This document shows positions 13,555 through 31,118 of a DNA stretch of 64,000 nucleotides, in pieces. This DNA comes from Ectobacillus funiculus (lineage in GTDB: Bacteria > Bacillota > Bacilli > Bacillales > Bacillaceae_G), in assembly GCF_004138295.1 (NCBI RefSeq), contig NZ_SCFM01000004.1, positions 310,001 to 374,000 on the forward strand, read 5' to 3'. Within the stretch, counting starts at the first letter, position 1. Each line of letters starts with the position of its first letter. The notes under the pieces were generated by a model. It ran no database searches. It was given only the letters and a program-made list of their open reading frames with translations, and was not told the DNA's origin. The position numbers and the translations under genes were made by a program.

Positions 13555-13647
13555 GTTAGTCTCAAAGACCATACGTACCGGCTTCTATACTTTCTGTTTT
13601 AGTGTGAAATAAGCTAGGCTCCCCATTTTAGTCAATGTAAACCCGCA

Positions 13648-13684
13648 GCAATAGACGCCATGCATTGTGCCCGGCGTCTATTGC
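13648..13684. terminator. Shared hairpin between gltC and the thioesterase gene
   Basis: The 12-base arms GCAATAGACGCC and GGCGTCTATTGC pair perfectly around a 13-base loop between two convergent genes. There is no long T-run. Confidence 0.6.
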
Positions 13685-13691
13685 AAACCTT

Positions 13692-14207: not shown

Positions 14208-14384
14208 TTCTCCACCTCTTTGATATGTAGCTTTCCTTATTACATCTCGCTTATCTGCACCGTGATAGTTTGATGTACAAATATCTTAATGAAACTATCC
14301 TATATTGTTTGTCATCATACAGCAACTCCAGCTTATACTCAAGCTTTTTCCTTTTCTCCACACATTTTGGTTTATGACCGCAAT

Positions 14385-14480
14385 GAGAAGATTCTCTACA
14401 GTTGCATTTACTATTCCTAAAATTCCCGGCCACGTCGAATGATTTCCAGCTGAAAATTTATACTTTCCTACAATGTTAAA
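14385..14480 (+). repeat. 134-bp repeat, 5'-eroded copy
   Basis: The right two thirds match the repeat consensus: a decayed GTTGCA...TTCCTAAAATT, then CGTCGAATG, then AAATTTATACTTTCCTACAATG. The left hairpin is not recognisable. The copy abuts the terminator of the signal peptidase gene. Confidence 0.6.
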
Positions 14481-14517
14481 AAGGGTGTTTCAAAAGACGA
14501 CTTTGAAACACCCTTTT
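14479..14517. terminator. Terminator of signal peptidase gene
   Basis: The 16-base arms (14479-14494 and 14502-14517) are perfectly complementary, with AAAA and TTTT at their outer ends. It lies 36 bases after the stop codon of the minus-strand gene. Confidence 0.85.
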
Positions 14518-14552
14518 CAACTTGGAATAAATACAAAATGAAAACAGCATAG

Positions 14553-15137
14553 TTATTTTGTCCAGGAAATTTCAAAAACCTTTTTCCCAAGCACATGATC
14601 TAAAGGAACATATCCAATCTGTCGACTATCACGGCTATTATTTCGGTTATCTCCCATCACGAACACACTGTCCTTTGGCACTACCCATTTTTCGTTAACT
14701 CCAACATACATAGCCTCTTTAATATACGATTCATGCAGCTCTTGTCCGTTTCGATACAGCTTATTTTGCCTAATTTCCAGTTCATCGCCCGGCTTTCCGA
14801 TCACCCGTTTCACATAAAGAGCGTGCCCTTCATCTTCTGAAGCTAAAAACTGCAACAGCGGGTTTTCTAGAAAATCATCCTTAACTGTGCGCTCCCTGTC
14901 GACACGACTATCAATAATCACGATATCACCGTAATCAGGCTCACGTGAGAAGGTGTGCGGTAATTTAGAGACAATAATTCGTTCCTGATCCGCCAAAGTA
15001 GGGTCCATAGAATGTCCCTCCACCTTATAGGGTTGAACAACAAAAACACTTACTACGATAGCGAGCGCCAAAGCGACCGCAAAAGAACTAATCCAACTCC
15101 ACGCCTCTCTTATCACTTTCTTCAACTCTCTATCCAT
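14553..15137 (-). CDS. lepB: Type I signal peptidase
   Basis: Membrane-bound serine protease that removes signal peptides (194 aa). One N-terminal transmembrane helix (about residues 17-35) is followed by the catalytic Ser43 in GHSMDPTL and the general-base Lys110 in YVKRVIGKPGD. The conserved MGDNRNNSRDSR box is near the end. This is the single-anchor SipS/SipT type typical of Bacillus. It stands alone with its own terminator. Confidence 0.95.
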   Translation of the reverse strand: MDRELKKVIREAWSWISSFAVALALAIVVSVFVVQPYKVEGHSMDPTLADQERIIVSKLPHTFSREPDYGDIVIIDSRVDRERTVKDDFLENPLLQFLASEDEGHALYVKRVIGKPGDELEIRQNKLYRNGQELHESYIKEAMYVGVNEKWVVPKDSVFVMGDNRNNSRDSRQIGYVPLDHVLGKKVFEISWTK

Positions 15138-17108: not shown

Positions 17109-18294
17109 AGGAACTGTGCTAGAGATTCAAAAGAAAAATATTTTGCTCCTTACTCGCGACGGAAGGTTTGTGAAATGCACAAAAAAGCAAGGAAGCTATG
17201 CAATTGGGCAAGAAATTATATTTACCGAGGAAGAATTGCTGCCAAACAGAACACATTTATTCAGCTCCCCCTTTTTGAAACCCATATTTATATTAATTTG
17301 TTGCTTCCTTACTTCATCTTTGTTTTTCTATGACGGGGAGCATGATAAAGTTATGGCTTACGTATCTGTCGATATAAATCCAAGTGTGGAAGTAAGCGTG
17401 GATAGCAACCTTCGCGTACTCCGCTTAGAGGCTTATAATGCAGAGGGTAAACAAATTCTAAAAGAGCTTACAAATTGGAAAAAGCAACCTCTATCTGATG
17501 TTATTGAACAGGTTATAAATCAATGCCAACTAGATGGATATCTAAGAAAAGGGACACAGGTTGCCCTTACCTCTGTTGTAGCCGACAATAATAAAGCATT
17601 TCAACAAAAGCTGGAACCCGTTTTACAAACGGTAAGAACAAAGTATGCGAAGGAAAGTGTATCGATAGTGCACCAAGAGGGGACTATTCAAATGAGGGAA
17701 AACGCCAAGGAATCAAACATGAGCACCGGCACTTATATGAAAAAAGAGAAAACTGAGAAATCTCCTTTGCTCATCCCGAAAGCACCTTCTCCTTCAGAAG
17801 AACGGCACGATTCCGATACCCCAGAAGAAACAGAAAAAGAACAGGTGAAAAAGGAAAAAGAATCATCGTACCAAGATAACAAGCATGGAGAACCAATTAA
17901 GCGGAATAAAGAACAGCTTTCTCAAACGAACAAAGCTGAAGAACAAATAAAACAAAACCATGAATCATCTTCTCAAACTGACAATCACAAAGAACCGATT
18001 AAACAGAATAATGGACAGCTTCCTCAAACAAACAAAGCTGAAAAACAAATAAAACAGAACCATGAGCAATCTTCTCAAACTGACAAGTACGAAAAACCGA
18101 TTAAACAGAACAATGGACAGCTTTCTCAAACGAACAAAGCTGAAAAACAAATAAAACAGAACCATGAACAACCTTCTCAAACCGACAAGCGCGAAAAACC
18201 GATTAAACAGAACAATAAGCAGCCTTCTCAACAGAACAATAAGCAGCCTTCTCAACAGAACAATGACAAAGAGGCGGGGGAAAAGAGAGCATAG
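17101..18294 (+). CDS. rsgI: Anti-sigma-I factor RsgI with repetitive tail
   Basis: Membrane anti-sigma factor (397 aa) that holds SigI. The N-terminal cytosolic RsgI_N domain (TVLEIQKKNILLLTRDGRFV) is followed by one transmembrane helix (PIFILICCFLTSSLFFY). Next is the conserved extracytoplasmic segment AYVSVDINPSVEVSVDSNLR, which in RsgI proteins undergoes autocleavage at an Asn-Pro; NP is present here. The last third is low-complexity and hydrophilic, with repeated IKQN and QLSQT units. It begins at GTG inside the end of sigI. Confidence 0.94.
   Translation: MNKGTVLEIQKKNILLLTRDGRFVKCTKKQGSYAIGQEIIFTEEELLPNRTHLFSSPFLKPIFILICCFLTSSLFFYDGEHDKVMAYVSVDINPSVEVSVDSNLRVLRLEAYNAEGKQILKELTNWKKQPLSDVIEQVINQCQLDGYLRKGTQVALTSVVADNNKAFQQKLEPVLQTVRTKYAKESVSIVHQEGTIQMRENAKESNMSTGTYMKKEKTEKSPLLIPKAPSPSEERHDSDTPEETEKEQVKKEKESSYQDNKHGEPIKRNKEQLSQTNKAEEQIKQNHESSSQTDNHKEPIKQNNGQLPQTNKAEKQIKQNHEQSSQTDKYEKPIKQNNGQLSQTNKAEKQIKQNHEQPSQTDKREKPIKQNNKQPSQQNNKQPSQQNNDKEAGEKRA
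17875..18268 (+). repeat. 51-bp tandem coding repeats in rsgI
   Basis: About seven units of 17 codons alternate between two versions: NKAEKQIKQNHEQSSQT and DKYEKPIKQNNGQLSQT. They form 102-bp higher-order units and end in two 8-codon NNKQPSQQ units. Near identity of the units suggests recent expansion. Confidence 0.85.
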
Positions 18295-18434
18295 GAAACC
18301 TTTCTATGTTCTTTTTCGATTATGCCAAGCCCCTTTATCAGGAATGAGAGAGGCTGGTTTTGTTACAGACAAGTAAAAGTGCTCCTCAGGAAAATCTGAC
18401 AAGAGTACCTAACAAAATAATTTCACTTCAGATA

Positions 18435-19163
18435 TTATCGAAACCAATTTGTTAATGTTATCATAGAAAGTAAGCCAAAAATAAAGGAAAAGGTTGCAGT
18501 TGTTTCATTTCCATCCCCATGGCTTTCTGGAATCAGCTCTTTATATACAATAAATAGCATTGCACCTGCAGCAAAAGCTAGTCCATAAGGAACAATGAAT
18601 AAAAACGCACCAGTAAAGTGAAAGCCTATCATTGACGAAATAAGTTCAATTAACCCGGTGATAGCAGTATATAAAAAGGCTTTAAAGCGACTCTCATAAT
18701 TTGATATAAGAAATAAAGCTATTAAAAACCCTTCCGGAATGTTTTGCAGTGCAATTGCAAAGGAAACAACCGGCCCTAAATCTTGATAATCACTGGCGTA
18801 ACTTACACCAACGGAAAGACCCTCAGGTACGTTATGAAGAGCTATGGCGATAAATAACAAGGGTGCACTTGTTTGAAATGATACAGTAGATGAGTGATCT
18901 AAATCTATATGAGGAAGATAATAATCTAAAAGTGTCAACACTAGTGTTCCTAAAATAATCCCGATTGAAAGTACCAATAAATTAGAAATTTTTAGTGTAG
19001 AAGGAATTAATCCATACGTAGCGGCAGCCACCATAATTCCAGCTGTATAAGCTAGCAAGTTATCTTTATGACGATGCGAAATGTTTTGTAAAAACACGGC
19101 AGGAACAGCCCCTAATATAGTACATATAGAAGATACAATGATTCCTATGTATACATCTTCCAT
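18435..19163 (-). CDS. ZIP-family divalent metal transporter
   Basis: Metal ion permease (242 aa, about eight membrane helices), probably importing zinc or a related ion. The helix-4 motif HNVPEGLSVGVSY and the helix-5 motif LQNIPEGFLIALF form the metal path. The second motif has Gln where many ZIPs have His. AGGAGG lies 6 bases before the ATG. There is no zinc-uptake regulator site that I can see. Substrate is inferred from family only. Confidence 0.88.
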   Translation of the reverse strand: MEDVYIGIIVSSICTILGAVPAVFLQNISHRHKDNLLAYTAGIMVAAATYGLIPSTLKISNLLVLSIGIILGTLVLTLLDYYLPHIDLDHSSTVSFQTSAPLLFIAIALHNVPEGLSVGVSYASDYQDLGPVVSFAIALQNIPEGFLIALFLISNYESRFKAFLYTAITGLIELISSMIGFHFTGAFLFIVPYGLAFAAGAMLFIVYKELIPESHGDGNETTATFSFIFGLLSMITLTNWFR

Positions 19164-19339
19164 AACATCCTCCTAATCCTATGCTTATCCCAATATATGT
19201 GAGGGATACTTGTGACATGCATTTAATTTCACTGTTCCCAGAATACTCGAACTCGCTTATCTAGCTTCATTTTCTTCAAAAGGACTTCCTTCGACCAAAA
19301 ATTAGGGTTTCAATAACTAATGCAGCTGTACGAGACCGC

Positions 19340-19477
19340 TAAAGAAAACTCACCGATTGGCGAGCCCTGCCCTTGGGCGAAGATAGAGGCGTAGTTGCAC
19401 TTATACTTTGTTCCTAAAATTTCTAACTACGCCGAACTGTCTTCCTGCTAGAAATTTATACTTTCTTAAAGTGTAAG
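19340..19477 (+). repeat. 134-bp repeat, near-consensus copy
   Basis: Starts TAAAGAAAACTCACCGATTG, keeps GCGAGCCCTGCCCTTGGGC and ends ACTTTCTTAAAGTGTAAG. It lies in the gap between the ZIP transporter and the MFS gene, next to a large inverted repeat. Confidence 0.9.
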
Positions 19478-19501
19478 AAAAGAAGACAAGGTCCGCCTTT
19501 T

Positions 19502-19574
19502 ATGGCAGCGTAGGGGTGGGCCGGAGTAAAAGGCGCTTTTTGCCTTTTGTGGAGGTTCAGTCCTACGCTGCCAT
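19502..19574. repeat. Nested inverted repeat (73 bp)
   Basis: The outer arms ATGGCAGCGTAGG (19502-19514) and CCTACGCTGCCAT (19562-19574) match perfectly. Inside them AAAAGGC and GCCTTTT (19528-19534, 19542-19548) form a second stem. It is not a simple terminator, because the outer stem has no T-run. No open reading frame is attached. Confidence 0.8.
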
Positions 19575-19628
19575 TTTGGGCCTTGGGAGCTAGACACCTC
19601 CCCGAAAAGTTATACTCTCTTATCCTGT

Positions 19629-19656
19629 AAAAAAAGATCGGCTTTCACCGATCTTT
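19629..19656 (-). terminator. Terminator of the seven-gene operon
   Basis: The stem AAAGATCGG/CCGATCTTT is followed by T-run on the minus strand, 7 bases after the MFS stop codon. Confidence 0.85.
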
Positions 19657-19662
19657 GATGGA

Positions 19663-21396
19663 TTATTCTGTTACTGCTGTATCTAGCGCTGCATCTACAG
19701 CACGCTTCCGTAAAAACAACAAACTTCCACTGCATACAACAGCCAATACTAAGCCGCTCCAAAAGGCCTTCGTCATTGCTTTTACTAAATATGTTTCCGC
19801 ATCATCTCTTATGTCACCTTGAATATCATTTACTTCCTTTTCAGTACTCTGCAGCTCCGCGTCCACTTTTGTTTCAATTTCCTTTTCCGCTTGTGGTGGC
19901 AGCTGAGCTCCTTGTGGCAATGTTTGCAGAACTTCTTGTTTTTTCTTTACAATAGTCTGTTGACGCAATTCAGCTGATATTTTAAATTCCCCCAGCTTTT
20001 TCGCTTCTTCAAAGAAGTTGCTTCTTTGTTTCTCCAGTCTTGCAATGGCTTGCTCTGTCACTTGAGAAGGTAACTCTGCTTTTTGGAAACGTGTTATCCC
20101 CTTATCTACTATTTCAGAAGAGTAAGTATTTAAAAAGCTCAGGGTGAGAGATACAAATAACGATACCCCGATTGCGCCTCCCATATTTCGTGATGTTGCA
20201 AAAATGCCCGAACCTAACGATACGTGTTTGTCTGATACAGACGCCGTACAAACTGTCACACTCGTAACCATGATAATACCTAACCCAGTACCGAGCATTA
20301 TCATTACAAAAACAAGATGTTTCAGGGATACATTCGCATCCAAATTAACTAACAATGCAAAGCCTGCAACTGTAAATATGTATCCCAAAACCATTGGCAT
20401 AAAATAACCAATACGATCAATCAAACGGCCAATCATAGGTGCTACCACAAGCATAACGGCCGAGAGTGGTGTAATCAGAAAGGAAGACTGTAAAGTGTCG
20501 TATCCTTTGACTTGCGTAAAATAAATTGGCAGCAGGATAAGTGTTCCCATCAAGAGTACACCACCCAAAAAGTTAGACAGAATTCCTCCGACATAATGCC
20601 GATTTTGAAAAATCGTGAAGTCTACCAGGGGCTGACGCACTTTTCTTTCTATTAATACAAATAATAGTGCCGACACTAAACTTATCCCAAAATACAGATA
20701 AATTACTTGAGAAGTCCATCCTAATTCTTCGCCTTGGAGAATCGCATAAGTAAGAAAATATAAGCCTGCACTAAGTGTCGCTATTCCCCAAAAATCAAGG
20801 CTAAACGGTGTCCGCACATCGTGATGCCCCTTAAATGCTATCCGTATGAAAGGATATGATAGAACGACAACCGGAACATTAATGTAGAAAACCCATCTCC
20901 AGTTGATATATTCAGTTACTACTCCGCCTAGACTCGGTCCAACAGCGACTGCCAATGCTCCTACCGCTCCCCAAATCCCCATTGCCAAGCCTGTTTTTTC
21001 TGGCGGCACCGCTGTACGCACAAGCATCATACTAGCAGGAATTATCATAGCCCCTCCAATTCCCTGAAGCACCCGGGCGACAATTAAAACTTCTTCGTTT
21101 GGTGCAATTCCGCAAAAAAAGGAACTGATCGTGAAAATGACAAGCCCTATCAAAAAGAAACGCGACCTTCCAAACATATCCGCAAGCTTCCCAAAGGTAA
21201 CCAGTAAAACTGCTAATGTAAGAACAAACGCATTGATGATCCAAGATGCCACACTTAGAGTGATACCATAATCTTCAATAATGGTTGGCAACGCTATATT
21301 TACGACTGTGCTGTCCAAGAACACAAGAAATAAGCCAAGACTGACTGCGAATACCTGTTTCAAACCACCGTATTGTACTGTCGGTTGATTTGTCAT
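19663..21396 (-). CDS. DHA2-family MFS exporter (EmrB/QacA type)
   Basis: Proton-driven multidrug or metabolite efflux protein (577 aa), last gene of the seven-gene operon. The 14-helix DHA2 pattern is clear: FLVFLDSTVVNIALPTI in helix 1, GKLADMFGRSRFF in the first loop and GAVGALAVAVGPSLGGVV in helix 5. Unusually, about 120 residues of charged helical sequence (about 420-540, rich in Lys, Glu and Gln) separate the last two membrane helices. This is much longer than the common loop. Placement suggests it exports the product of the upstream genes. The start has GGAGGGG upstream. Confidence 0.9.
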   Translation of the reverse strand: MTNQPTVQYGGLKQVFAVSLGLFLVFLDSTVVNIALPTIIEDYGITLSVASWIINAFVLTLAVLLVTFGKLADMFGRSRFFLIGLVIFTISSFFCGIAPNEEVLIVARVLQGIGGAMIIPASMMLVRTAVPPEKTGLAMGIWGAVGALAVAVGPSLGGVVTEYINWRWVFYINVPVVVLSYPFIRIAFKGHHDVRTPFSLDFWGIATLSAGLYFLTYAILQGEELGWTSQVIYLYFGISLVSALLFVLIERKVRQPLVDFTIFQNRHYVGGILSNFLGGVLLMGTLILLPIYFTQVKGYDTLQSSFLITPLSAVMLVVAPMIGRLIDRIGYFMPMVLGYIFTVAGFALLVNLDANVSLKHLVFVMIMLGTGLGIIMVTSVTVCTASVSDKHVSLGSGIFATSRNMGGAIGVSLFVSLTLSFLNTYSSEIVDKGITRFQKAELPSQVTEQAIARLEKQRSNFFEEAKKLGEFKISAELRQQTIVKKKQEVLQTLPQGAQLPPQAEKEIETKVDAELQSTEKEVNDIQGDIRDDAETYLVKAMTKAFWSGLVLAVVCSGSLLFLRKRAVDAALDTAVTE

Positions 21397-21413
21397 AGCC
21401 TTTCCCCTCCATT

Positions 21414-22574
21414 TTACAATTGCGTTGGAACATCCAATACAATCTTACCGATAAGCTCCTTTAACACTTCAGGTGTAGGGCCCATTACAGAACCTGCTTT
21501 GCTGTCCCTAATATAGCGTTCAATCGGAGAGTGCGCTGAGTACGCGTACCCACCACATACCTTTAGCCCTAAATCAGCCAATTGCATGGCAGCTTGACAA
21601 GCCATCACCTTGATTTCCAATGTACTTACCATATCCAATTGATTTAGTTCTAATTTCAGCACTACTGTATCTAACGCTTTTTCCGCCTGATCACAGATAA
21701 TTTTCATTTCTCCCACGATTTGCTGGATACTTTGAAAATTTGATAGATTCGTGTTAATATGCGCATAAAAACGTTTCTTGACATAGGATACGGACTCTTC
21801 ATAAATCGCTTTCGCAATTCCGATGTTTAACGCAGAAATACCGATTTGTCCCATCGGAAGCAGAGATTCCCTTACGATTTTAAATCCTTCTCCCTCTTTT
21901 CCAATGAGCATCTCTTCATCAAGCTGACAATCAATAGTCATCGGAGCACTTTGATTTCCGCGCAATCCCATCCCTTCCCAAATTCCCCCTAAGGTAATAC
22001 CAGGATGTTCCTTAGGAATCACATAAAAATTGCTTTGCATAGAATTCTTTGCGAAAGTGGCTTTGGAATTCGTTACGTATATATCAGCCTCTCCCGCACT
22101 TGTTACCATTATTTTATTCGTATTTAGCCGGAAATTCTTATCTATCTTTTCTGCCTGACTGACTGGTAGGAAAAAATAACATCCAGAACCCGCTTCACTT
22201 AAAGCGATGGTTGCCAAACGTTTCCCTTGTGCCATAAGCCCTAGCTGCTCTGATATATATAGCTGCTGCTTACCATATAACATGATAGACGCGGCTGATG
22301 TATGCTGCACATAAACAAGGGCTGTCGATGCACATGCTTGTGCTAGCTTTACTACAACTTCTTTGTATATACGAGGAGTCCCTCCCATTCCTCCAAGCTC
22401 TTTTGGAATCATAAGACCTAAAAGCCCCTCTTCTCCCAACGCAGCCAGATTTTCTCTTGGAAATGCTCGTTCCGTATCCCACTTTTTCGCATTAGGGATG
22501 AGGTAATCCACTACAACATCGTCCACTTTTTCCAGAATATCCGAGAGTGACTGTTGCAATTCCTGTGTCTTCAC
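21414..22574 (-). CDS. Acyl-CoA dehydrogenase family protein
   Basis: FAD-dependent dehydrogenase/oxidase fold (386 aa). An N-terminal helical domain (LGEEGLLGLMIPKELGGMGG) is followed by the ALSEAGSGCYFF strand region, where catabolic enzymes have LTEPxAGSD, and a C-terminal helical domain with GGYAYSAHSPIERYIRDSKA. The usual catalytic Glu region near the end reads SVMGPTPEVLKEL and no Glu is obvious at the family site. It may therefore desaturate or oxidise an unusual substrate rather than do beta-oxidation. Starts at GTG, overlapping the upstream U32 gene by 4 bases. Confidence 0.85.
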   Translation of the reverse strand: MKTQELQQSLSDILEKVDDVVVDYLIPNAKKWDTERAFPRENLAALGEEGLLGLMIPKELGGMGGTPRIYKEVVVKLAQACASTALVYVQHTSAASIMLYGKQQLYISEQLGLMAQGKRLATIALSEAGSGCYFFLPVSQAEKIDKNFRLNTNKIMVTSAGEADIYVTNSKATFAKNSMQSNFYVIPKEHPGITLGGIWEGMGLRGNQSAPMTIDCQLDEEMLIGKEGEGFKIVRESLLPMGQIGISALNIGIAKAIYEESVSYVKKRFYAHINTNLSNFQSIQQIVGEMKIICDQAEKALDTVVLKLELNQLDMVSTLEIKVMACQAAMQLADLGLKVCGGYAYSAHSPIERYIRDSKAGSVMGPTPEVLKELIGKIVLDVPTQL

Positions 22575-23443
22575 TTTACGGTCTCCTGTCTAATTTGTTT
22601 TGGAGAAAAGCGAAAATCATCGCAAATGGAGTCAACTTCAAACGACTCCTCTCCAGCCCATTCTTTGTTTTGTACCACGATATTGCCGTATACAATCAGT
22701 TCACCCAACCTTTGGCGATTCTCTTTTGCAATTCGTATCATAGTATCTTCAAATCTATTCCACCGTTGACGAGGCTCAATGTAAATCGCTTCATTGCATA
22801 AATGACCGCAATTTCCGACAGTTTCATTATAAGCGCGGGCTGTATGACAAGAACGGGACATCGATGCCATCGCATAGCCTAAAAAAGCATTAACAGCAAT
22901 GCCTTCCTTGCGAAGCGATTGAATAGACTCCTGCATTCCCGGTCCTATATCCAGATCAATTTCCTGCACTCCATATTGCTGGAGCAACACTATAATTGAA
23001 TCAGAGTCCACATTTACTTGAAAATACATTTGCCTAATGTCAGCAGTTTCGTTTTGTAAAATATCCTCGTACCATGGGCAATTTATAAAGCTATATACAA
23101 GCTGTCTTCCCAATGAAAAAGAAACATGCGACGGATTTTGTTGTGACACCAAATAATGAAGTGTTCCCCAGTCATTGACTACAATGTTAAGAGGAAGATG
23201 AAAGAGTTGCTGAACCTTTTCCATTACACGCCCAAAATGGGCTTCAAACAAGATAGGGAGTTCAATTTTAGCGTTCTTCCCTTGTTGTAAAATATATTGA
23301 ATATGCTCTTCGTTCAATCCCGCCATCTTATGAATACAACCCGAATGTCCCAAGCAAATAGTGTCATAATCCTCAAGGAAAAGACTCGATAATGTATACA
23401 GCTGATCATGATGAACTCTGAGTTCTTTTTTGGAAGTATTCAA
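22571..23443 (-). CDS. U32-family protein, UbiV-like
   Basis: Second of two adjacent U32-type proteins (290 aa). It has the cysteine pattern CX(14)CX(3)C in SCHTARAYNETVGNCGHLC and further Cys in TICLGHSGC, resembling the 4Fe-4S site of UbiV. UbiU/UbiV pairs carry out oxygen-independent hydroxylation in ubiquinone synthesis; Bacillaceae make menaquinone, so the substrate here must differ. The start is a TTG at 23443 with GGAGGG 6 bases upstream; an earlier ATG would overlap the previous gene by 49 bases. Function is inferred from family only. Confidence 0.75.
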   Translation of the reverse strand: MNTSKKELRVHHDQLYTLSSLFLEDYDTICLGHSGCIHKMAGLNEEHIQYILQQGKNAKIELPILFEAHFGRVMEKVQQLFHLPLNIVVNDWGTLHYLVSQQNPSHVSFSLGRQLVYSFINCPWYEDILQNETADIRQMYFQVNVDSDSIIVLLQQYGVQEIDLDIGPGMQESIQSLRKEGIAVNAFLGYAMASMSRSCHTARAYNETVGNCGHLCNEAIYIEPRQRWNRFEDTMIRIAKENRQRLGELIVYGNIVVQNKEWAGEESFEVDSICDDFRFSPKQIRQETVK

Positions 23444-23454
23444 GCTTCGCCCTC

Positions 23455-24414
23455 CTATACATACATTTGATTGGTGCGCGTAGGAAGATATGTGCAGCGG
23501 CACTTTTCACAAAACCTCGGTACCCACTTCATAACCCACATTAATTGTTCCTGCTCCATGATTTCCTTCTTGACTGCAATAGAAACGCTCTCAAGTCCAA
23601 GCTCTTTCCATTGCCGGAATACATCGACTACAAGAGAAAGAGAAACAGGGTTTGGGGCTTCTCTGCCTATAAATTTAATGGCGCGTACACCAGCCTCCAC
23701 AAGTTCTTCCAAATTGCACAAACTGCAGTCTGTTGCACTATCAAGTAACGTCATCTGACTCACTATACTGCCGTCTGGAAACTCTACACGATAACCAGAT
23801 CGTATCCCTTCGCCTATTTCAGCATTATTAGGACTCTCCCACAGCCGGCATGCTGCCGGCACGCTGCCGGTACCAAAGTTCCCGGTTATCATCATCTCAA
23901 GACCTTCTTGTTTCCAGCGCTTTATTTCTTCAAGCGTTGTACTATGCCCTACTGTAATACGAGCAATCCCCTTTTCGCGAAGCATACGGACTGCGTACTT
24001 ATTTACGGGAGCAATCGTTGATCCAGAAATGAAGGCTACACGCTTTTGAAAGCCCTTTAAAAGTTCCAGCGTTTGAAACGAAGAGACAGTCACAAAATCC
24101 ACTCCCAATTCAACAGCTTGGGCCACGTGCCCTATGTATAGCTGCTCAAGTTCCCGTGGAATATAGGATGCATTCGCCATAAAGATAACCTGAACGCTTT
24201 TCCTCTTGGCAAGATCCATCACTTCTTGAAGCGATTCCCAGTTTTCAAAGTGCGCTGGATATCCAGCAACGGTTTGGAAACGATTATCAAAAGAAAGCTG
24301 CTGGAGCAATGGATGTCGAACACCGACATAAATTTCATCAACTCCAGCTTCTAACATTTCCTGCAGCATAAACTTGGATCGTACAGGCGCAACAAGCTTT
24401 AATTGGTCTAACAT
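23455..24414 (-). CDS. U32-family peptidase-like protein, UbiU-like
   Basis: First of the U32 pair (319 aa). It has the U32 TIM-barrel strands (GVDEIYVGVRHP, GVDFVTVSSFQTLELL) and the family segment CSLCNLEELVEAGVRAIKF. Six cysteines (189, 230, 233, 302, 305, 307) can hold a 4Fe-4S cluster. The final FCEKCRCTYL cluster is beyond the usual four. U32 relatives (UbiU, RlhA, TrhP) act as oxygen-independent hydroxylases rather than peptidases. Its ATG directly follows the stop of the NifS-like gene, so the genes are coupled. Confidence 0.8.
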   Translation of the reverse strand: MLDQLKLVAPVRSKFMLQEMLEAGVDEIYVGVRHPLLQQLSFDNRFQTVAGYPAHFENWESLQEVMDLAKRKSVQVIFMANASYIPRELEQLYIGHVAQAVELGVDFVTVSSFQTLELLKGFQKRVAFISGSTIAPVNKYAVRMLREKGIARITVGHSTTLEEIKRWKQEGLEMMITGNFGTGSVPAACRLWESPNNAEIGEGIRSGYRVEFPDGSIVSQMTLLDSATDCSLCNLEELVEAGVRAIKFIGREAPNPVSLSLVVDVFRQWKELGLESVSIAVKKEIMEQEQLMWVMKWVPRFCEKCRCTYLPTRTNQMYV

Positions 24415-25596
24415 CTACACCTTCTCCTTTACTTGCGGAAGCATCTGTCGCAGCGTATATACAGACTGAGATAAACTTCGAATTAGGTAGTCTATATCTT
24501 CTCGTGTTGTGTACTTTCCAAAACTGATTCGCAGCGATGATTTAATTCTATCTTCAGAATGTCCTAATGCCTGCAAAACATGGGACAGCTTTACTTTCTC
24601 TGAACTGCAAGCGGATCCTACAGAAACTGCTATGCCGTATATCTCATTCAAAATTGCCGCCAATGCTTCGGAACGGATATGAGCAAATGCCACATTCAAC
24701 GTTCCTGGTAAGCTATGGCCGGTGTCTATTGTTCCATTTACATCGAAATCTGCTATTGACGTCTGCAACCTCTCCAACAAATAAGCCTTCAATTCTATCA
24801 TCTTATCGTATTGTACAGGCAGTTCCGCATACGCTAAGCTGCAAGCAACTCCAAATCCTATGGCCCCCAGCACATTTTCCGTTCCGCCACGCCAGCCATT
24901 CTCCTGACCTCCCCCATGTACTAAAGGCTGCAAGGATGTCGAGTCTTTCATATATAAAGCACCGACCCCCTTCGGTCCATATAACTTGTGAGAAGAAAAG
25001 GATAGCGCATCAACTCCTAAATCCGTTACATGTACAGGAACTTTCCCAACAGCTTGCACCGCATCTACATGAAAGAAAACATGGGGATTGATAGCCTTTA
25101 TCGTTTGAAGCATTTGCTTAATAGGTTGAATAGTCCCCGTTTCATTATTTGCCATCATAACTGAGACCAGCACCGTATTCGGACGCATTGCTTGCTCCAA
25201 GCTTTCAATTTGAACAATACCTTCTTGGTTAACAGGTAAATATGTGACCTCTACTCCTCTATTCTCGTAGAAGCGGCACACTTCTAAAGTAGCTGGATGC
25301 TCAATTTGCGTAGTAATAATATGGACATTTTCCTCTTCAAAAGCATGCAAATATCCCTTCAAAGCAAAGTTAACCGCCTCTGTTCCACTTGATGTGAAAA
25401 TAATTTGATTGTCTTCCCCTGCACCAATTAGCTTGCAAGCTTGTAATTTCGCTTCTTGCACTTTGCTTTTAGCTATTCGGCCAAGAGAATGAATGCTAGA
25501 GGGGTTCCCAAATGTACCAATATGCTCTTTTAAAACATCCACCACTTCCTCACGAAGAGGAGTGGTGGCATTGTAATCAAAGTATTTGCCAATCAT
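24415..25596 (-). CDS. Cysteine desulfurase (NifS/IscS family)
   Basis: PLP enzyme (393 aa) that takes sulfur from cysteine for Fe-S clusters or thio-groups. DYNATTPLREEV opens the fold, SFSSHKLYGPKGVGALY carries the PLP Lys (about residue 203), and VSVGSACSSEKVKLSHVL carries the catalytic Cys (about residue 330). GGGQENGWRGGTEN is also typical. It lies 12 bases after the scaffold gene. No iscR, sufB or sufD accompanies it, so it looks dedicated to this operon, probably to build the clusters of the U32 proteins. Confidence 0.93.
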   Translation of the reverse strand: MIGKYFDYNATTPLREEVVDVLKEHIGTFGNPSSIHSLGRIAKSKVQEAKLQACKLIGAGEDNQIIFTSSGTEAVNFALKGYLHAFEEENVHIITTQIEHPATLEVCRFYENRGVEVTYLPVNQEGIVQIESLEQAMRPNTVLVSVMMANNETGTIQPIKQMLQTIKAINPHVFFHVDAVQAVGKVPVHVTDLGVDALSFSSHKLYGPKGVGALYMKDSTSLQPLVHGGGQENGWRGGTENVLGAIGFGVACSLAYAELPVQYDKMIELKAYLLERLQTSIADFDVNGTIDTGHSLPGTLNVAFAHIRSEALAAILNEIYGIAVSVGSACSSEKVKLSHVLQALGHSEDRIKSSLRISFGKYTTREDIDYLIRSLSQSVYTLRQMLPQVKEKV

Positions 25597-25608
25597 AACG
25601 AGAGCCTC

Positions 25609-25965
25609 CTACACAGCCACTTGTTCAAGTTGAGTAAACAATTCGTGCAGAATGTACAGGCAATGCATTTGCGGAGGCTCTAGTTCCCCTAGCATTGCTT
25701 CACGTATATCAATAGGTGTGGCTATAATCTCTGATAGTTGCTTTCCGATGATATAATGAGCAAAAATATCTGCTGTGGCAAGAGATGTAGCACAGCCGTA
25801 TGCAGTGAATTTTGCATCCTTCACTTTTTCCTGGACAATGCGTAACTTTAAAAAAATCGTATCTCCACAAACTGAATTGCCAATTTTTAATTCCTGGTTC
25901 GCATTTGGCAACTCACCTGAATGTTTAGGATTACTGAAATGAGCTACAATGGTTGGGTTATACAT
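25609..25965 (-). CDS. IscU/NifU-type Fe-S scaffold protein
   Basis: Small scaffold (118 aa) on which Fe-S clusters are assembled. The three cluster cysteines are in place: Cys33 in NSVCGDTIFL, Cys58 in YGCATSLATAD and Cys102 in MHCLYILHEL. The Asp after the first Cys is kept. It lies directly before the desulfurase gene, the usual partner. The combination differs from the suf system that Bacillus species normally use for housekeeping. Confidence 0.9.
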   Translation of the reverse strand: MYNPTIVAHFSNPKHSGELPNANQELKIGNSVCGDTIFLKLRIVQEKVKDAKFTAYGCATSLATADIFAHYIIGKQLSEIIATPIDIREAMLGELEPPQMHCLYILHELFTQLEQVAV

Positions 25966-25978
25966 CCTCTTTCACCTC

Positions 25979-27157
25979 CTAAGGTGCAACTGTAGTTTTT
26001 TGAGCTTCTACTTCATCCATGTGCTTCTCTAGGTTAATGGCACAGCAACCAATTTCAGCACCTGGCACACGGGTAATGTAGACAACCTTTTGTCCATTCC
26101 GACCGCACTCACATGTATTTTCTTTTTCTAAATAAACGAGATCTTCCGTTAGAATGAACCCCGGATATGACAAAGATGTTGGATCCATAATTGCCAGAAC
26201 ACCGCGTCGGCCTTGCGGAACTTCTTTGCTTAAATCCTTTGGATCACGAAGAGAAAAATGAACCCATGGCGGTACATGTTTAGATTGCTTATCACACTCA
26301 ATTGCTAATAAGTTGGCTTCAACAAGACCGTACATATCACGGACATTTTCCTTAGGGATGCCTAGATACTCGGCACAGTCTTCATTAAACTGTGAACGAG
26401 GAATTTCCATACCAGAGAACTTCTTCCACCCTCCAAGATTTATTACCATGGTTCTTTTATCAAGCTTTAAGCGGATAGCATTTGTCTTCAAATACTTAAC
26501 AAGTTTATACACAAGGAAAGGAGGGCCAATGATATGACGGGTATGCATATTCTCCCATCGTTCCAGTACTTCAATAGCTTCTTGCGGCTTAAATGAAGCA
26601 CGCTTTACTAGACATTTTGTCGCATCGAATAGACCCGAAAGCATGTTTAAAGCCTTCACCATTCCCATCTCTGGCATTTCCTCTGGTGAAGGGAACAAAA
26701 ATAAAGCAGCGCCCCTGGAAAACATAAAGATGTCCCTGTACATCGCATAGAGGCTGAATATACTTCGGTCAACTGTCTCACGGTCACGGCGAGAAATACT
26801 AGGAATACCGCTTGTGCCTGTACTGCGCATTTCAAATTCAATGTTGGTTAATGAAGTAGATAATAAAAGATGAGAATCTGGTCTTTTAAAACTGGTGACT
26901 GGAATCAGAGGAATCTTATGTAGGTCTTTGAAGTCTTGAATGTCTGCTGGGGTAATATTGTTGTCGTCACAAAGCATTCGATAATACGCATTGTGTTCGT
27001 AATGATATCTGAAGTTCTCTGACAGCAAGTAACCCTTCATTTCGTTTACTTTTTGTTCCTCCCATTGAAATACGTCAGAAACAGATCCAATTACAGCCTT
27101 GACCGAATCGATTCCAACGTTATTCAAGCTCTCTAATACGGTGCGAACCTCTTTCAT
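25979..27157 (-). CDS. LuxE/PaaK-like acyl-protein synthetase
   Basis: ATP-dependent carboxylate-activating enzyme (392 aa) of the LuxE acyl-protein synthetase group, related to PaaK phenylacetate-CoA ligases. The AMP-binding loop reads MRSTGTSGIPS; MYGLVEANLLAIEC and PGFILTEDLVYLE match later adenylation motifs. A CECGRNG segment resembles the metal-binding C-x-C-G of this group. First gene of the operon, with AAGGGGG before the ATG. No luxA/B or luxC/D gene is near, so light production is not implied. It probably activates an acid that the later enzymes modify. Confidence 0.82.
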   Translation of the reverse strand: MKEVRTVLESLNNVGIDSVKAVIGSVSDVFQWEEQKVNEMKGYLLSENFRYHYEHNAYYRMLCDDNNITPADIQDFKDLHKIPLIPVTSFKRPDSHLLLSTSLTNIEFEMRSTGTSGIPSISRRDRETVDRSIFSLYAMYRDIFMFSRGAALFLFPSPEEMPEMGMVKALNMLSGLFDATKCLVKRASFKPQEAIEVLERWENMHTRHIIGPPFLVYKLVKYLKTNAIRLKLDKRTMVINLGGWKKFSGMEIPRSQFNEDCAEYLGIPKENVRDMYGLVEANLLAIECDKQSKHVPPWVHFSLRDPKDLSKEVPQGRRGVLAIMDPTSLSYPGFILTEDLVYLEKENTCECGRNGQKVVYITRVPGAEIGCCAINLEKHMDEVEAQKTTVAP

Positions 27158-27186
27158 AACAAGTCCCCCTTGATTTTAATTATTTT

Positions 27187-27195
27187 ATTATAACA
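27187..27195 (-). promoter_or_regulatory. Extended -10 element upstream of the LuxE-like gene
   Basis: TGTTATAAT on the minus strand, about 30 bases before the start codon. No good -35 lies at 17 bases, which fits a promoter that needs an activator or relies on the extended -10. Confidence 0.4.
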
Positions 27196-27331
27196 ACCAA
27201 AAGATATTAGTTTTATAACAATATGAGAATGCCAAAAACCAGTACCTTATAGTGTCATTACTGGGACATAACGTTAAACACATGGATAATTTAGCAAAGG
27301 TAAAAAATATTGTCAATATTCTATCTATTAT

Positions 27332-27388
27332 GTTCATTACGATTTACAATACCTTAATATCAATGTTTCTCCGGGTTCATTACGATTT
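27332..27388. repeat. Direct repeat pair, possible operator
   Basis: GTTCATTACGATTT occurs twice, at 27332 and 27375, 43 bases apart (about four DNA turns), each followed by a similar AT-rich tail. They lie about 180-230 bases upstream of the operon start. A role as regulator sites is inference. Confidence 0.5.
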
Positions 27389-28038
27389 GTAAACAATGTA
27401 ATTTATTCATAAACTGAAACAAAAAATTATATAAGAAAAGTTTATAATATAGTATTCTCTCTTTATACTTCTTCAAATTTAGCTATTTTCAAAATACTGA
27501 GTAATATATAGGTTTAGGGCAACGTAATTTTTTATAACGCTTTCATCCTTTGCATATAAAGAAACACACCTTTCCATTCTCTATTATTTCACTTTATAAA
27601 AGCTTACTATGCTGATTGGAATTTCTTGTTTTCAGCTTCTGCTTGCTCAAAATAACGAAGTATAATTCTGTGCAATTAAGTTCACTGATGCATCCCCCTG
27701 TTCCTTGCTCATCTTGCTATAGCCACCTCCCAAAAACTTATCGTCAGCTTCTTGCTAACTTTTTTATAAATTAATTTTATTTTTTTTGTGTTACAACAAA
27801 AATGAACTTTTACATAGTGCAATTCATAAGAAAATCTTTGATAATCCTATAGGCTAAGTTAAAAATTAGACCATCAACCTAAAAAAATTACATACTCTCA
27901 AAGCAAAAATGATTCTATGTTGACGTTTGTTGGTGGATTATACAATAAGTTAACATTTCTATCTAACAAGGAAGCCTTGACGGAGTGCTACAATAGGAGA
28001 TTTATTGGGAAAGTCATTCAAATGTTCCTGATTAGATA

Positions 28039-28079
28039 ACCTAAAAAACCTTGCTGCTACGCAGCAAGGTTTTTTAGGT
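28039..28079. terminator. Perfect 19-bp hairpin terminator
   Basis: The arms ACCTAAAAAACCTTGCTGC and its complement surround a 3-base loop. A-run and T-run make it work in both directions. It lies after the DUF1292 gene. Confidence 0.9.
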
Positions 28080-28102
28080 GTAATGTATAACATGTAGGCA
28101 TC

Positions 28103-28366
28103 TTACTCATCCATACTCCCCTCAAACGCAGCAGACACCTGTTCAAACTCCTCGTCACTCTCAATATGTGACAAATTCCCATCTTCTTCTACTCTAAAAA
28201 AGAAGATATCAATGTCTTCACCTGTTTCCTGTTGAATGTCTTCCACAAGACCAACAGCCACGTATTCCATTCCTTCGACATTCATAATTCCCAGAACCTC
28301 AAATTCCTGCTCCTGATCATCCTCATCGCTAAGAGTAAAAATTTCGCCTACTTCAATTTTTTCCAT
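28103..28366 (-). CDS. DUF1292 family protein (YrzB-like)
   Basis: Small acidic protein (87 aa) with the DUF1292 pattern: GEIFTLSDEDDQEQEFEVLG, then EYVAVGLVED and DIDIFFFRVEEDGN. The family is common in Firmicutes and its function is unknown. I start at the ATG at 28366 because AAAGGAG precedes it by 8 bases; the reading frame extends further upstream without a ribosome site. It is not next to the yrrL/yrrK genes that accompany yrzB in B. subtilis. Confidence 0.85.
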   Translation of the reverse strand: MEKIEVGEIFTLSDEDDQEQEFEVLGIMNVEGMEYVAVGLVEDIQQETGEDIDIFFFRVEEDGNLSHIESDEEFEQVSAAFEGSMDE

Positions 28367-28551
28367 ACAATATTCTCCTTTCACAGCAGAAAGATACAGT
28401 GTTCCAAACCGTATGCATACCAACATATGTTTCCATATAAAATCCAATTCATGCGCAAAAACAATAAATTCTTATTTCTTTAGAGAAAATCACTATTTGT
28501 TAGGTGCTTGTACAAATGTTTGCAACAGGCTTTTTACAGCTTGTAAGCATT

Positions 28552-28688
28552 CAAGAAAACTCGCTGACTGGCGAGCCCTGCACTTGGGCAAAGACAAAGG
28601 CGTAATTACACTTATACTGCATTCCTAAAATTTCCATCTGCGGCACATTCACTTCTAGCTGGAAATTTATCCTTTCCTACAGTGCAAA
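28552..28688 (+). repeat. 134-bp repeat copy
   Basis: Starts AAGAAAACTCGCTGACTGGC, keeps the first hairpin with one change, and ends CTTTCCTACAGTGCAAA. It lies between two small minus-strand genes. Confidence 0.88.
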
Positions 28689-28689
28689 A

Positions 28690-28718
28690 CAAAAAACCCT
28701 GCTTATGCAAGGGTTTAT
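28690..28718 (-). terminator. Terminator of the 96-aa gene
   Basis: The stem AAACCCT/AGGGTTT with a 9-base loop is followed on the minus strand by TTGTTTTG. It lies 23 bases after the stop codon. Confidence 0.65.
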
Positions 28719-28738
28719 TTCCAAAGGTCAGCATCTAT

Positions 28739-29029
28739 TTAGTGAAAAGCTTGTTGAATCGATTCTTCCACACCTTGTTCAATCTCTTCATACTGATCGA
28801 GCGCGGCCTTAAATAATTCCTTTGTTGTAATGTGTTCCACTTCTTCACCGTCTATATAGGAATAAAGCACGTACAACTCGTTATTATCAGCCTTGCTGCT
28901 AATAGCGTTTGCATCAACGTCCTTACCAATTTCCCAAATCCGCTGTTTATACCCGTGACAAAGATGAAGCGTGTGCACAATAACGGTGTTAGACATTCTA
29001 CTGCCAAACCACCTATCCCAAAGTCCCAA
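28739..29029 (-). CDS. Hypothetical protein, 96 aa
   Basis: I do not recognise this family. The protein is soluble and acidic at the C-terminus (about 96 aa from a TTG with GAGGGGG 10 bases upstream, or 85 aa from the internal ATG of MSNTVIVHTLHLCHGYK). It contains NELYVLYSYIDGEEVEHI. A dedicated terminator and a plausible ribosome site support a real gene. Confidence 0.55.
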   Translation of the reverse strand: MGLWDRWFGSRMSNTVIVHTLHLCHGYKQRIWEIGKDVDANAISSKADNNELYVLYSYIDGEEVEHITTKELFKAALDQYEEIEQGVEESIQQAFH

Positions 29030-29177
29030 TTAAGAATCCCCCTCTTATTTCTTACTCCTATCTTATTCTTATCATCTCATATCATTACACTGACGGAAAT
29101 ATCTTTTTGCAAATATCTTTGGATAAATTTATGAATACAAAAGTCCAGAAATGCCGGATTGCTATCCCATTTGCCCG

Positions 29178-31118
29178 CTATTTCTTTCTTTGCACTGCTA
29201 AAGCTTGAATAGCTATAACAATTTCAGGGTTCACAAGGGCGGACAAATCCCCAAGAGCCTCTCCTAAAAATGCTGCTTTAATAACGCGGCGCATTACTTT
29301 TCCATTGCGTGTTTTTGGCAGATCAGCAATGCAATGGATCACCTTCGGACAAAGCGCCTTACCAATGTGCGTGCTGACAAGAAACAGCAGCTCTTCTTGT
29401 AACTTCTTTGTATAAATGGCTCCTTCGCTCAGTACGACAAAACAATGACTCACCTCTCCCTTCCTTTCATCTGGTACCCCAATTGCCGCTGCCTCCACTA
29501 CGTCGGCATGCTGCACGAGAACAGATTCGTATTCCGCTGGTCCGATCCGCTTTCCAGCGATGTTTAGCGTATCATCAGAACGACCGGTAATAACGTACTG
29601 TTCTCCGTCAAATTTCACCCAATCACCGTGCACCCATTTATTTTTGTACCGGGACCAATACGTGTGGATGTACCGCTCATTATCCTCCCAAAAACTCTTT
29701 GTCATGCCCACCCATGGCTTTTCAATACAAAGCTCCCCTACCTCGCCAACAAGCGGGCGACCCTCTCCATCTAATACTACAGCTGCCATTCCTGGGAGTG
29801 GTGAGTTAAATCCCATCGGTGCAATCGGTTTTACAAGAACATTGCCGAAAATACCACCAGAGATTTCCGTTCCACCTGAGTAATTAAAAATCGGAAGTCT
29901 TCCTTTTCCAACAGTAGAAAATAACCAAATCCAAGGATCCAAGTTCCACGGTTCACCGGTAGAAGCAATTACCTGTAAGCTTGCTAGAGAATACTTCATG
30001 ACCCACTCATCTCCCTTTGCCATAAGAGAACGGATTAAGGTCGGTGAAATGCCTAAATGCGTAATTCGATGGCGATCCGTCATTTCCCACAGACGGTCTG
30101 CAGGAGCATCTGGCACTCCATCATACATCACCATTGTCGCTCCATTTATAAGCGCACCAAACAGCAGGAAAGGGCCCATCATCCATCCCATATCTGTTAC
30201 CCACATAAGACGGTCTCTTGTTTGCACGTTCATGCCAAATGCAGCATCGAAGGACGCCTTTAGAGGGAAGCCAGTATGTGTATGCACCGTCCCCTTCGGT
30301 TTCCCAGTTGTACCGGATGTATAAATCAGCATAAGCGGATCATCACTTTTCATCTCAAGTGACTGGCGCAAGGGCTTTGCGTTCTCTAATTGATTCCATA
30401 ATAGATCATATTTTTTGGGCGGACACACATTTCCTGCATACCGGACAACAACAACCTTTTCTACTGTTGCGCACTGCTCACAAACACGATCCACTTCAGC
30501 CTTTAATGGTATTACTTTTCCCCGGCGCATAAAGCCATCCACTGTTACAATCATCTTTGACTTTGCTGCCTGTACGCGTGCTGCCGCTGCCGCTGCCGCA
30601 AACCCCGAGAAGATGGGAGACACAATCGCTCCAATCTTCATAGCAGCCAGCATCACAACAGCCGTTTCTGGAATCATCGGCATATAAATTGTAATACGGT
30701 CACCCTTTTGAATTCCTTGCTGCTGCAGGCCGCCAGCAACACGACTCACCCACTCATCCAGCTCTTCATAGGTAAAGGTTCTACTTACTCCGCCTTCTCC
30801 TTCCCAAATGAGTGCAGGTTCTGTTCTTACTCCATTGTCTTTTATCCAGCGGTCTAGCGCGGATTCCACAACATTGCACGTACCGTTTACATACCATTTT
30901 GGAAAAGGAATACCATTTTCTAACTCCAGCACTTCAGTATATGCTTTCATCCAACGATAACCAATGGCTCGCTCCGCTTCCCCCCAAAACCAAGAAATAT
31001 CTTCAATCGATTTTTTATAAAACGTCTCATAATCAGTAAACCCAAGTGATGTCATCCATTGATGTAAGCGAGTGGATGACTTGTATTCTTCTGTCGGAAA
31101 CCAAACAGCCTTATTCAT
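29178..31118 (-). CDS. Acyl-CoA / acetoacetyl-CoA synthetase (AMP-forming)
   Basis: Adenylate-forming ligase (646 aa) that activates a short-chain acid with CoA. Motifs: LMLIYTSGTTGKPKGTVHTH (ATP loop), FNYSGGTEISGG, YVITGRSDDTLNIAGKRIGP and the C-terminal TRNGKVMRR with the acylation Lys. An N-terminal acetyl-CoA-synthetase-type domain is present. It ends the branched-acyl-CoA operon, though a terminator and a repeat copy lie between it and the carboxyltransferase gene, so it may be expressed partly on its own. In leucine breakdown such an enzyme would turn acetoacetate into acetoacetyl-CoA; this is inference. Confidence 0.88.
   Translation of the reverse strand: MNKAVWFPTEEYKSSTRLHQWMTSLGFTDYETFYKKSIEDISWFWGEAERAIGYRWMKAYTEVLELENGIPFPKWYVNGTCNVVESALDRWIKDNGVRTEPALIWEGEGGVSRTFTYEELDEWVSRVAGGLQQQGIQKGDRITIYMPMIPETAVVMLAAMKIGAIVSPIFSGFAAAAAAARVQAAKSKMIVTVDGFMRRGKVIPLKAEVDRVCEQCATVEKVVVVRYAGNVCPPKKYDLLWNQLENAKPLRQSLEMKSDDPLMLIYTSGTTGKPKGTVHTHTGFPLKASFDAAFGMNVQTRDRLMWVTDMGWMMGPFLLFGALINGATMVMYDGVPDAPADRLWEMTDRHRITHLGISPTLIRSLMAKGDEWVMKYSLASLQVIASTGEPWNLDPWIWLFSTVGKGRLPIFNYSGGTEISGGIFGNVLVKPIAPMGFNSPLPGMAAVVLDGEGRPLVGEVGELCIEKPWVGMTKSFWEDNERYIHTYWSRYKNKWVHGDWVKFDGEQYVITGRSDDTLNIAGKRIGPAEYESVLVQHADVVEAAAIGVPDERKGEVSHCFVVLSEGAIYTKKLQEELLFLVSTHIGKALCPKVIHCIADLPKTRNGKVMRRVIKAAFLGEALGDLSALVNPEIVIAIQALAVQRKK

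Follow-up and report, generated by a model that had tools for sequence, protein, structure and literature searches.

A conserved seven-gene operon of Ectobacillus funiculus and Lysinibacillus that combines a LuxE-like ligase, IscU- and NifS-like proteins, a U32 protein pair, a flavoprotein and an exporter

Introduction

UbiU and UbiV each bind a 4Fe-4S cluster, with the ligand motifs CXnCX12CX3C in UbiV and CX6CX16CX38C in UbiU (PMC6747719). Here, we describe a seven-gene operon of Ectobacillus funiculus (GCF_004138295.1, contig NZ_SCFM01000004.1) in which a tandem pair of U32 proteins, one of them UbiV-like, is encoded together with a LuxE-family ligase, IscU- and NifS-like proteins, a flavoprotein of the acyl-CoA dehydrogenase (ACAD) fold and an exporter. 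The operon lies in the 64,000-nt stretch at positions 310,001-374,000 of the contig, which we call the window and whose numbering is used throughout.

Other parts of the operon also recall described systems. LuxE acts in bioluminescence, and we take the last cysteine column of its family to be the acyl-cysteine. Thiocarboxylate systems (ThiS/CysO-type carriers, thioquinolobactin and PDTC) combine an acyl adenylate with sulfur from a cysteine desulfurase. The original prediction, made from the sequence alone, read the operon as a pathway of acid activation, oxygen-independent hydroxylation and export with its own Fe-S assembly genes, and knew of no described pathway with this gene set. Our literature searches of openly licensed papers found no description of it either.

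Results

Seven open reading frames, all on the minus strand, occupy positions 19663-27157. Recomputing the intergenic gaps from the sequence gave 13, 12, 0, 11, -4 and 17 bases, which, together with the strand of the genes and a terminator after the last one, agrees with the earlier description. A purine-rich stretch resembling a ribosome-binding site precedes all seven starts. Gene 1 (25979-27157, 392 amino acids) encodes a LuxE-family acyl-protein synthetase/ligase, assigned through PF04443, the solved LuxE structure 7xc6 and a comparison of its cysteines. It is followed by gene 2 (25609-25965, 118 amino acids), which is IscU/NifU-N-like (PF01592, 78 bits), and by gene 3 (24415-25596, 393 amino acids), a cysteine desulfurase of the NifS/IscS type (PF00266, 270.3 bits; TIGR03402, 416 bits). 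Gene 4 (23455-24414, 319 amino acids) encodes a divergent U32 protein, with a PF01136 score of 42.5 bits that is low, though above the cut-off of 22.4. Gene 5 (22571-23443, 290 amino acids) was assigned as a UbiV-like U32 protein by alignment with UbiV, hhalign and a tree; its TTG start at 23443 is the best choice judging from its relatives. Gene 6 (21414-22574, 386 amino acids, GTG start) encodes the ACAD-fold flavoprotein (PF00441, PF02771 and PF02770), and gene 7 (19663-21396, 577 amino acids) a DHA2/EmrB-type MFS exporter, which passes the cut-off of the NCBIfam EmrB/DHA2 subfamily model (TIGR00711, 308.6 bits against 230.2). Among the gene products, Pfam recognizes LuxE, NifU_N, Aminotran_5, Peptidase_U32 (gene 4), the ACAD domains and MFS, so that the ligase, IscU, NifS, ACAD-like and exporter assignments of the original prediction are backed by Pfam or NCBIfam matches. 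For genes 1-6, no listed NCBIfam model reaches its cut-off (the best 25 of 29 models in the case of gene 3).

The complete operon is present in identical order in four Lysinibacillus genomes, making five examined genomes with that of the window; L. parviboronicapiens BAM-582 is one strain with the operon. Identities to the window proteins, computed by aligned piece, range overall from 51 to 77%: 76-77% for LuxE, 64-65% for IscU, 55-57% for NifS, 59-60% for the first U32 protein, 51-54% for the second, 68-71% for the ACAD and 62-72% for the exporter. The shared order of all seven genes implies that their grouping is more than chance, and it upholds the view of the locus as a conserved operon of the biosynthesis-and-export type, for which a lack of co-conservation elsewhere had been named as counter-evidence.

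The operon is rare, and its distribution is sporadic. A contig scan with gene 4 returned two Lysinibacillus loci, and an alignment search with the LuxE-like protein matched 4 of 32 Lysinibacillus genomes; the same four were the only matches among 250 genomes of the family to which Lysinibacillus belongs. The window genome was the sole carrier among 60 relatives (searched with genes 5 and 1), among 398 genomes of the class (genes 4 and 1) and among 398 genomes of the phylum (gene 4), and no further sampled genome with the operon was found by genes 1, 4 or 5. The class, phylum and family sets were sampled evenly from larger groups, and the Lysinibacillus carriers escaped the class sample, so these counts establish rarity, not absence. 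Neither gene 4 nor gene 5 had a match on plasmids; the LuxE search found no relative in viral contigs, and in phages gene 1 had a single distant match, unannotated and 24% identical. The operon has a G+C content of 42.1%, the remainder of the window one of 40.5%, and none of the four Lysinibacillus operons departs from its flanks by more than 0.3 points; base composition thus gives no sign of recent horizontal transfer.

The first three genes also occur as a unit elsewhere. A plasmid search with the LuxE-like protein returned 62 records, 15 of them from Priestia; among the 30 matches listed, 14 were from Priestia at 57-59% identity and the other 16 had at most 30%. Two of the 15 Priestia records were examined (L010 and L011). 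On these plasmids, of Priestia megaterium/aryabhattai, LuxE, IscU and NifS genes follow each other in the order of the window, with identities of 56-57%, 38-40% and 47%, respectively. Upstream of the ligase, Pfam identifies a CMD-family gene, a fatty acyl-AMP ligase, an FMO-like oxidoreductase and an acyl carrier protein (ACP), while tblastn over 21-25 kb of the two records found no match to U32, ACAD or MFS exporter proteins. Gene 2 matched 94 plasmid records; in the best 40 of them, scores of 94-99 bits set the Priestia IscU proteins apart from the rest, none of which exceeds 75. Since no U32 gene lies near it in the two Priestia records, the LuxE-IscU-NifS triad behaves like a unit whose inheritance does not depend on the U32 pair; if the IscU- and NifS-like proteins only loaded U32 proteins, Priestia would have no obvious reason to retain them. 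The Priestia cluster looks like an undescribed small-molecule pathway. Its full order, at 8421-15254 of L010 and 6417-13245 of L011, is TetR, CMD, fatty acyl-AMP ligase, FMO-like, ACP, LuxE, IscU, NifS and DinB; in L010 the annotation divides the acyl-AMP ligase into two pieces, and in L011 the FMO-like gene appears as two open reading frames.

The cysteines of gene 1 set the triad-linked ligases apart. The protein matches PF04443 with 175.5 bits (curated cut-off 24.9) and the solved LuxE 7xc6 with an E-value of 2.8e-45; its score with the NCBIfam LuxE model, 167.8 bits, is below the cut-off of 550, and Pfam searches of all seven genes found no LuxC reductase partner in the operon. We aligned 24 ligase rows including that of the window, after dropping five long frames. 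Cys372 falls in the last cysteine column, which holds cysteine in all 23 rows that reach it, one row being short of that column. Cys371, directly before it, is cysteine in all seven triad-linked rows (the window, four Lysinibacillus and two Priestia sequences) and in none of the 16 others; a dropped Streptomyces relative (L022) has serine there in a separate alignment. Cysteines 349, 351, 371 and 372 are all invariant in the seven triad-linked rows. The CxCG motif occurs also in LuxE relatives with no NifS/IscU match nearby (L012, L013 and L050-L054), and is therefore not specific to the triad.

Of 31 loci with LuxE-family genes, six have NifS and IscU beside the ligase (four from Lysinibacillus and two from Priestia). 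The other 25 showed no NifS/IscU match in the stretch examined, some of these stretches being short and three of the loci giving no LuxE match at cut-off. The window genome carries a second LuxE-family gene, of another type, at G000:C82:215464-216459 (L047, L055), with GC at the acyl-cysteine position and no NifS/IscU match in 18 kb.

Both sulfur-handling proteins keep their expected functional residues. Gene 2 retains C33, D35, C58, H101 and C102, invariant in five of five rows; three cysteines and the aspartate (C33, D35, C58 and C102) correspond to what we take to be the Fe-S assembly site of the IscU/NifU scaffold. Its score with the NCBIfam IscU model is 52.8 bits, below the cut-off of 192.4, and it has EPPQM in place of LPPVK, the HscA motif of IscU. 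In gene 3, the pyridoxal phosphate lysine (Lys204) and Cys330, in the loop SAC(330)S, are likewise invariant in five of five rows. Elsewhere, the window genome encodes one more NifU_N protein, whose gene adjoins one of the NifS family, as well as three additional NifS-like genes. Given these genes, the need for a private Fe-S supply to the two U32 proteins is not obvious, though such a supply may exist, and the occurrence of the triad on Priestia plasmids apart from any nearby U32 gene further weakens the earlier label of dedicated Fe-S assembly.

The two U32 proteins turned out to differ in how closely they resemble UbiU and UbiV. Identities are low for both, at 19% between gene 5 and E. coli UbiV and 22% between gene 4 and E. 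coli UbiU. In plain hidden Markov model (HMM) searches, gene 5 scored E. coli UbiV with just 0.6 bits, under the 838-residue U32 protein of its own genome (4.9), while gene 4 scored that same U32 protein with 47.8, E. coli RlhA with 28.4, TrhP with 23.5 and UbiU with 9.5 bits. As these ranks count against a clear UbiU/UbiV identity, we performed profile and tree tests, in which we assigned the groups of six rows (window genome, Lysinibacillus and Parabacteroides) ourselves and left out one U32 region (L080).

For gene 5, these tests point to UbiV. It groups with UbiV in the U32 tree at a support of 98/99, and its hhalign comparison with the UbiV group gives a probability of 74 and an E-value of 2.8e-5, against 0.01 or worse with the UbiU, TrhP, YrrN and RlhA groups. 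C36, C199, C212 and C216 align with C39, C180, C193 and C197 of E. coli UbiV, the residues that bind its 4Fe-4S cluster (PMC6747719). Gene 5 has no Pfam match, and the NCBIfam UbiV model detects it at an E-value of 0.006 and 16.1 bits, below the cut-off of 275.

Gene 4 is a very divergent U32 protein that resembles RlhA and UbiU to a similar degree. Its hhalign scores are 102 with RlhA, 93 with UbiU and 77 with TrhP. In the tree it stands beside UbiU at a support of only 45/77; the tree test did not reject a grouping with RlhA (p 0.287) and was borderline for TrhP (p 0.0477). NCBIfam scores run opposite to the plain HMM, with 32.7 bits for UbiU (cut-off 440) and 15.2 for TrhP. C233 alone shares a cysteine column with UbiU (C232), and C189 was taken, by eye, as the putative counterpart of UbiU C176 in the same region, so that at most two of the four UbiU ligands have a match. 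C189, C230, C233, C302, C305 and C307 are conserved in five of five sequences; C230 and the C-terminal CEKCRC, also invariant in all five, might complete a cluster. Of the predicted UbiU/UbiV-like pair, the UbiV-like half is thus supported by grouping and by its four cysteines, while a UbiU-like identity for gene 4 is weakened; a grouping with the RNA-hydroxylase or collagenase-type U32 proteins was not observed for gene 5.

Both U32 lineages sit on very long branches, with at least 3 changes per column. AlphaFold models built from three-sequence alignments reached mean pLDDT values of 58.9 for gene 4 and 52.3 for gene 5, and their cysteine regions were unreadable. Using Foldseek, the low-confidence gene 4 model matched the U32 protein Mk0906 first (5d88, E 1.6e-7); the gene 5 model had no match at E<=1e-3, with Mk0906 seventh at 3.7e-3. 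A comparison of the gene 4 profile with Protein Data Bank sequences returned mostly designed armadillo repeats, which we took as noise.

The flavoprotein encoded by gene 6 has MGPT instead of YEGT and LPMGQIG instead of the LDGGRIG region in an alignment with solved ACADs. We take the YEGT position (in short-chain enzymes) and the helix G position to be the sites of the catalytic glutamate in acyl-CoA dehydrogenases; the predicted lack of this residue is therefore borne out at both usual positions. Plasmid matches at E<=1e-30 comprised 19 records. All five relatives that we examined (31-38% identity) lack glutamate at the YEGT position, and two of them, from Methylocystis, adjoin sfnG, ssuD and msuE. 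The third-best NCBIfam model for gene 6 is 3-sulfinopropanoyl-CoA desulfinase (142.5 bits, below the cut-off of 600). The sulfur context of the relatives is suggestive and not general. The three remaining relatives, on actinobacterial plasmids (L070, L072 and L073), adjoin PhnD-like genes, and radical-SAM genes lie nearby in two of them.

The operon is bounded by candidate regulatory elements. After gene 7, an intrinsic terminator at 19622-19662 (minus strand) consists of a hairpin of -13.5 kcal/mol followed by a T-run, with a z-score of -3.56 and 3 of 200 shuffles equally good; the hairpin is absent from the results of a consensus scan. A promoter-like consensus match (27288-27316, minus strand), some 130 bases ahead of gene 1, reads TTGACA-17-TAAATT, its second hexamer being preceded by TG. 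As a class, such sites show no excess, with 23 found against 26.6 expected from shuffles. Directly upstream of it, within the gap of about 0.95 kb between gene 1 and a gene for a DUF1292 protein, a 14-nt exact direct repeat, AAATCGTAATGAAC on the operon strand, occurs in two copies 43 nt apart from start to start (27332-27388, minus strand). The repeats are possible sites of an unknown regulator. Rfam gave no match across 18200-29200.

In Lysinibacillus, one locus (L019) has the exporter split over two frames, 13188-13496 and 13475-14908, with the six other genes open. A gene for a transglutaminase-core protein follows the operon in L007 (15006-19717) and L019 (15105-19772), and beyond it, on the opposite strand, lie a polyprenyl-synthetase-like gene, a response regulator and a histidine kinase; Pfam backs three of these four downstream genes in L007. 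This arrangement resembles that of ComQ-ComA-ComP quorum sensing.

Discussion

The operon probably makes an undescribed small molecule, and its product possibly contains sulfur. Most economically, it can be read as a biosynthetic pathway in which the first three genes couple acyl activation with sulfur mobilisation. From the observed gene content, order, conservation, cysteine patterns and missing glutamate, we infer each chemical step as well as the product. Gene 1 would activate a carboxylic acid with ATP and hold it as a thioester on Cys372, in the manner of LuxE. Gene 3 would draw sulfur from cysteine, and gene 2 would pass it as a persulfide to gene 1, probably onto Cys371. The sulfur on Cys371 could then attack the acyl group, freeing a thiocarboxylate or another S-acyl product; a vicinal pair with one cysteine acyl-loaded and the other persulfide-loaded would offer a simple route to a thiocarboxylate. 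The U32 pair might hydroxylate the substrate or the product without O2, as UbiU-UbiV do, gene 6 may perform an oxidation or a C-S step that does not depend on a glutamate base, and gene 7 would export the product.

The original prediction had the IscU- and NifS-like proteins build the 4Fe-4S clusters of a U32 pair that hydroxylates the LuxE-activated acid, with no sulfur required in the product. The full UbiV cluster motif of gene 5, the six invariant cysteines of gene 4 and the retained C, D, C, H, C set of gene 2 all fit this proposal, as do the 4Fe-4S clusters described for each of UbiU and UbiV (PMC6747719). It leaves Cys371 unexplained, however, and has to contend with the two Priestia records, where the triad has no U32 genes nearby, and with the other NifU_N gene beside a NifS-family gene and the three NifS-like genes of the window genome, so that we regard it as unlikely. 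Sulfur transfer to the acyl group fits these Priestia and genome observations better, and because Cys371 is, in addition, confined to the triad-linked ligases, we favor it over Fe-S supply for the U32 pair, if tentatively and with somewhat less than even confidence. Several points weigh against this preference. The canonical scaffold residues of gene 2 make Fe-S assembly possible; the seven ligases bearing the double cysteine form one clade, so their correlation with the triad may be a single ancestral event; and the Priestia evidence comes from only 2 of 15 records. In the alignment, gene 4 lacks two of the four UbiU cluster ligands. The operon lacks a sulfur-acceptor protein, a thioamide enzyme and an ATP-pyrophosphatase, no clear sulfur context surrounds the gene 6 relatives of Rhodococcus, Mycolicibacterium and Miltoncostaea, and the top models for gene 6 do not concern sulfur (Rv1679/FadE16 at 300 bits, acryloyl-CoA reductase at 172.7).

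Two further explanations seem improbable to us. The IscU- and NifS-like proteins could serve the LuxE-like protein itself, supplying a metal-sulfur site formed by C349, C351, C371 and C372. These four cysteines are invariant in all seven triad-linked rows, and gene 1 is what the window-type operon and the Priestia cluster share, partly by construction, as the loci were found via LuxE. Yet LuxE relatives that have no NifS/IscU match nearby carry the CxCG half as well, and C372 belongs to the general acyl-cysteine column, an unlikely place for a cluster ligand. We give similarly little weight to a catabolic or tailoring island, whose ligase and flavoprotein would degrade or detoxify an acid while the exporter removes a toxic compound. 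The missing canonical beta-oxidation glutamate, the lack of a hydratase or thiolase in the operon and the presence of dedicated sulfur genes argue against such a role, as does the Priestia version with its ACP and fatty acyl-AMP ligase, typical of assembly pathways; it would be in keeping with the sporadic distribution and with the frequent function of DHA2-type exporters as efflux pumps.

Extending the preferred idea of sulfur transfer to the acyl group, LuxE-IscU-NifS might be a mobile and hitherto undescribed module for sulfur incorporation, in which a synthetase with vicinal cysteines converts a carboxylate into a thiocarboxylate and persulfide relayed by a repurposed Fe-S scaffold replaces the ubiquitin-like carrier. 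Here, the module would be coupled to a hydroxylase that resembles UbiUV, works without O2 and belongs to neither quinone nor RNA metabolism, and would give an unknown secretable sulfur metabolite. This extension is rather doubtful. If true, it would be a new bacterial route for putting sulfur into acyl groups and, to our knowledge, the first UbiUV-like hydroxylase acting outside quinone and nucleic-acid metabolism. A ligase with the double cysteine beside IscU and NifS also provides a search handle for new natural products in Bacilli.

Compared with known systems, gene 1 shares with LuxE of bioluminescence its Pfam family, the match to 7xc6 and the acyl-cysteine column, and is 28-30% identical to a LuxE-type ligase on an E. 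coli K-12 plasmid, which lies beside acyl-CoA reductase and acyl transferase genes. Unlike LuxE, it has no LuxC partner, and it carries the extra C371, the CxCG motif and NifS and IscU neighbors. The U32 genes form a tandem pair in the same order as UbiU-UbiV, with the cysteines and grouping of UbiV in gene 5; they differ in their low identity, in the two UbiU ligands absent from gene 4 and in the absence of UbiT from the operon, in a host that we take to make menaquinone. For gene 6, the best NCBIfam model is the Rv1679/FadE16-type family, yet its 300 bits are below the cut-off of 600. The Priestia triad has the LuxE, IscU and NifS genes in the same order as the window, whereas its companions are ACP, fatty acyl-AMP ligase, FMO-like oxidoreductase, CMD and DinB proteins. 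Finally, unlike the thiocarboxylate systems named above, the operon encodes neither a ubiquitin-like sulfur carrier nor an E1-like enzyme, and the acyl-cysteine of the LuxE-like ligase would take over that role.

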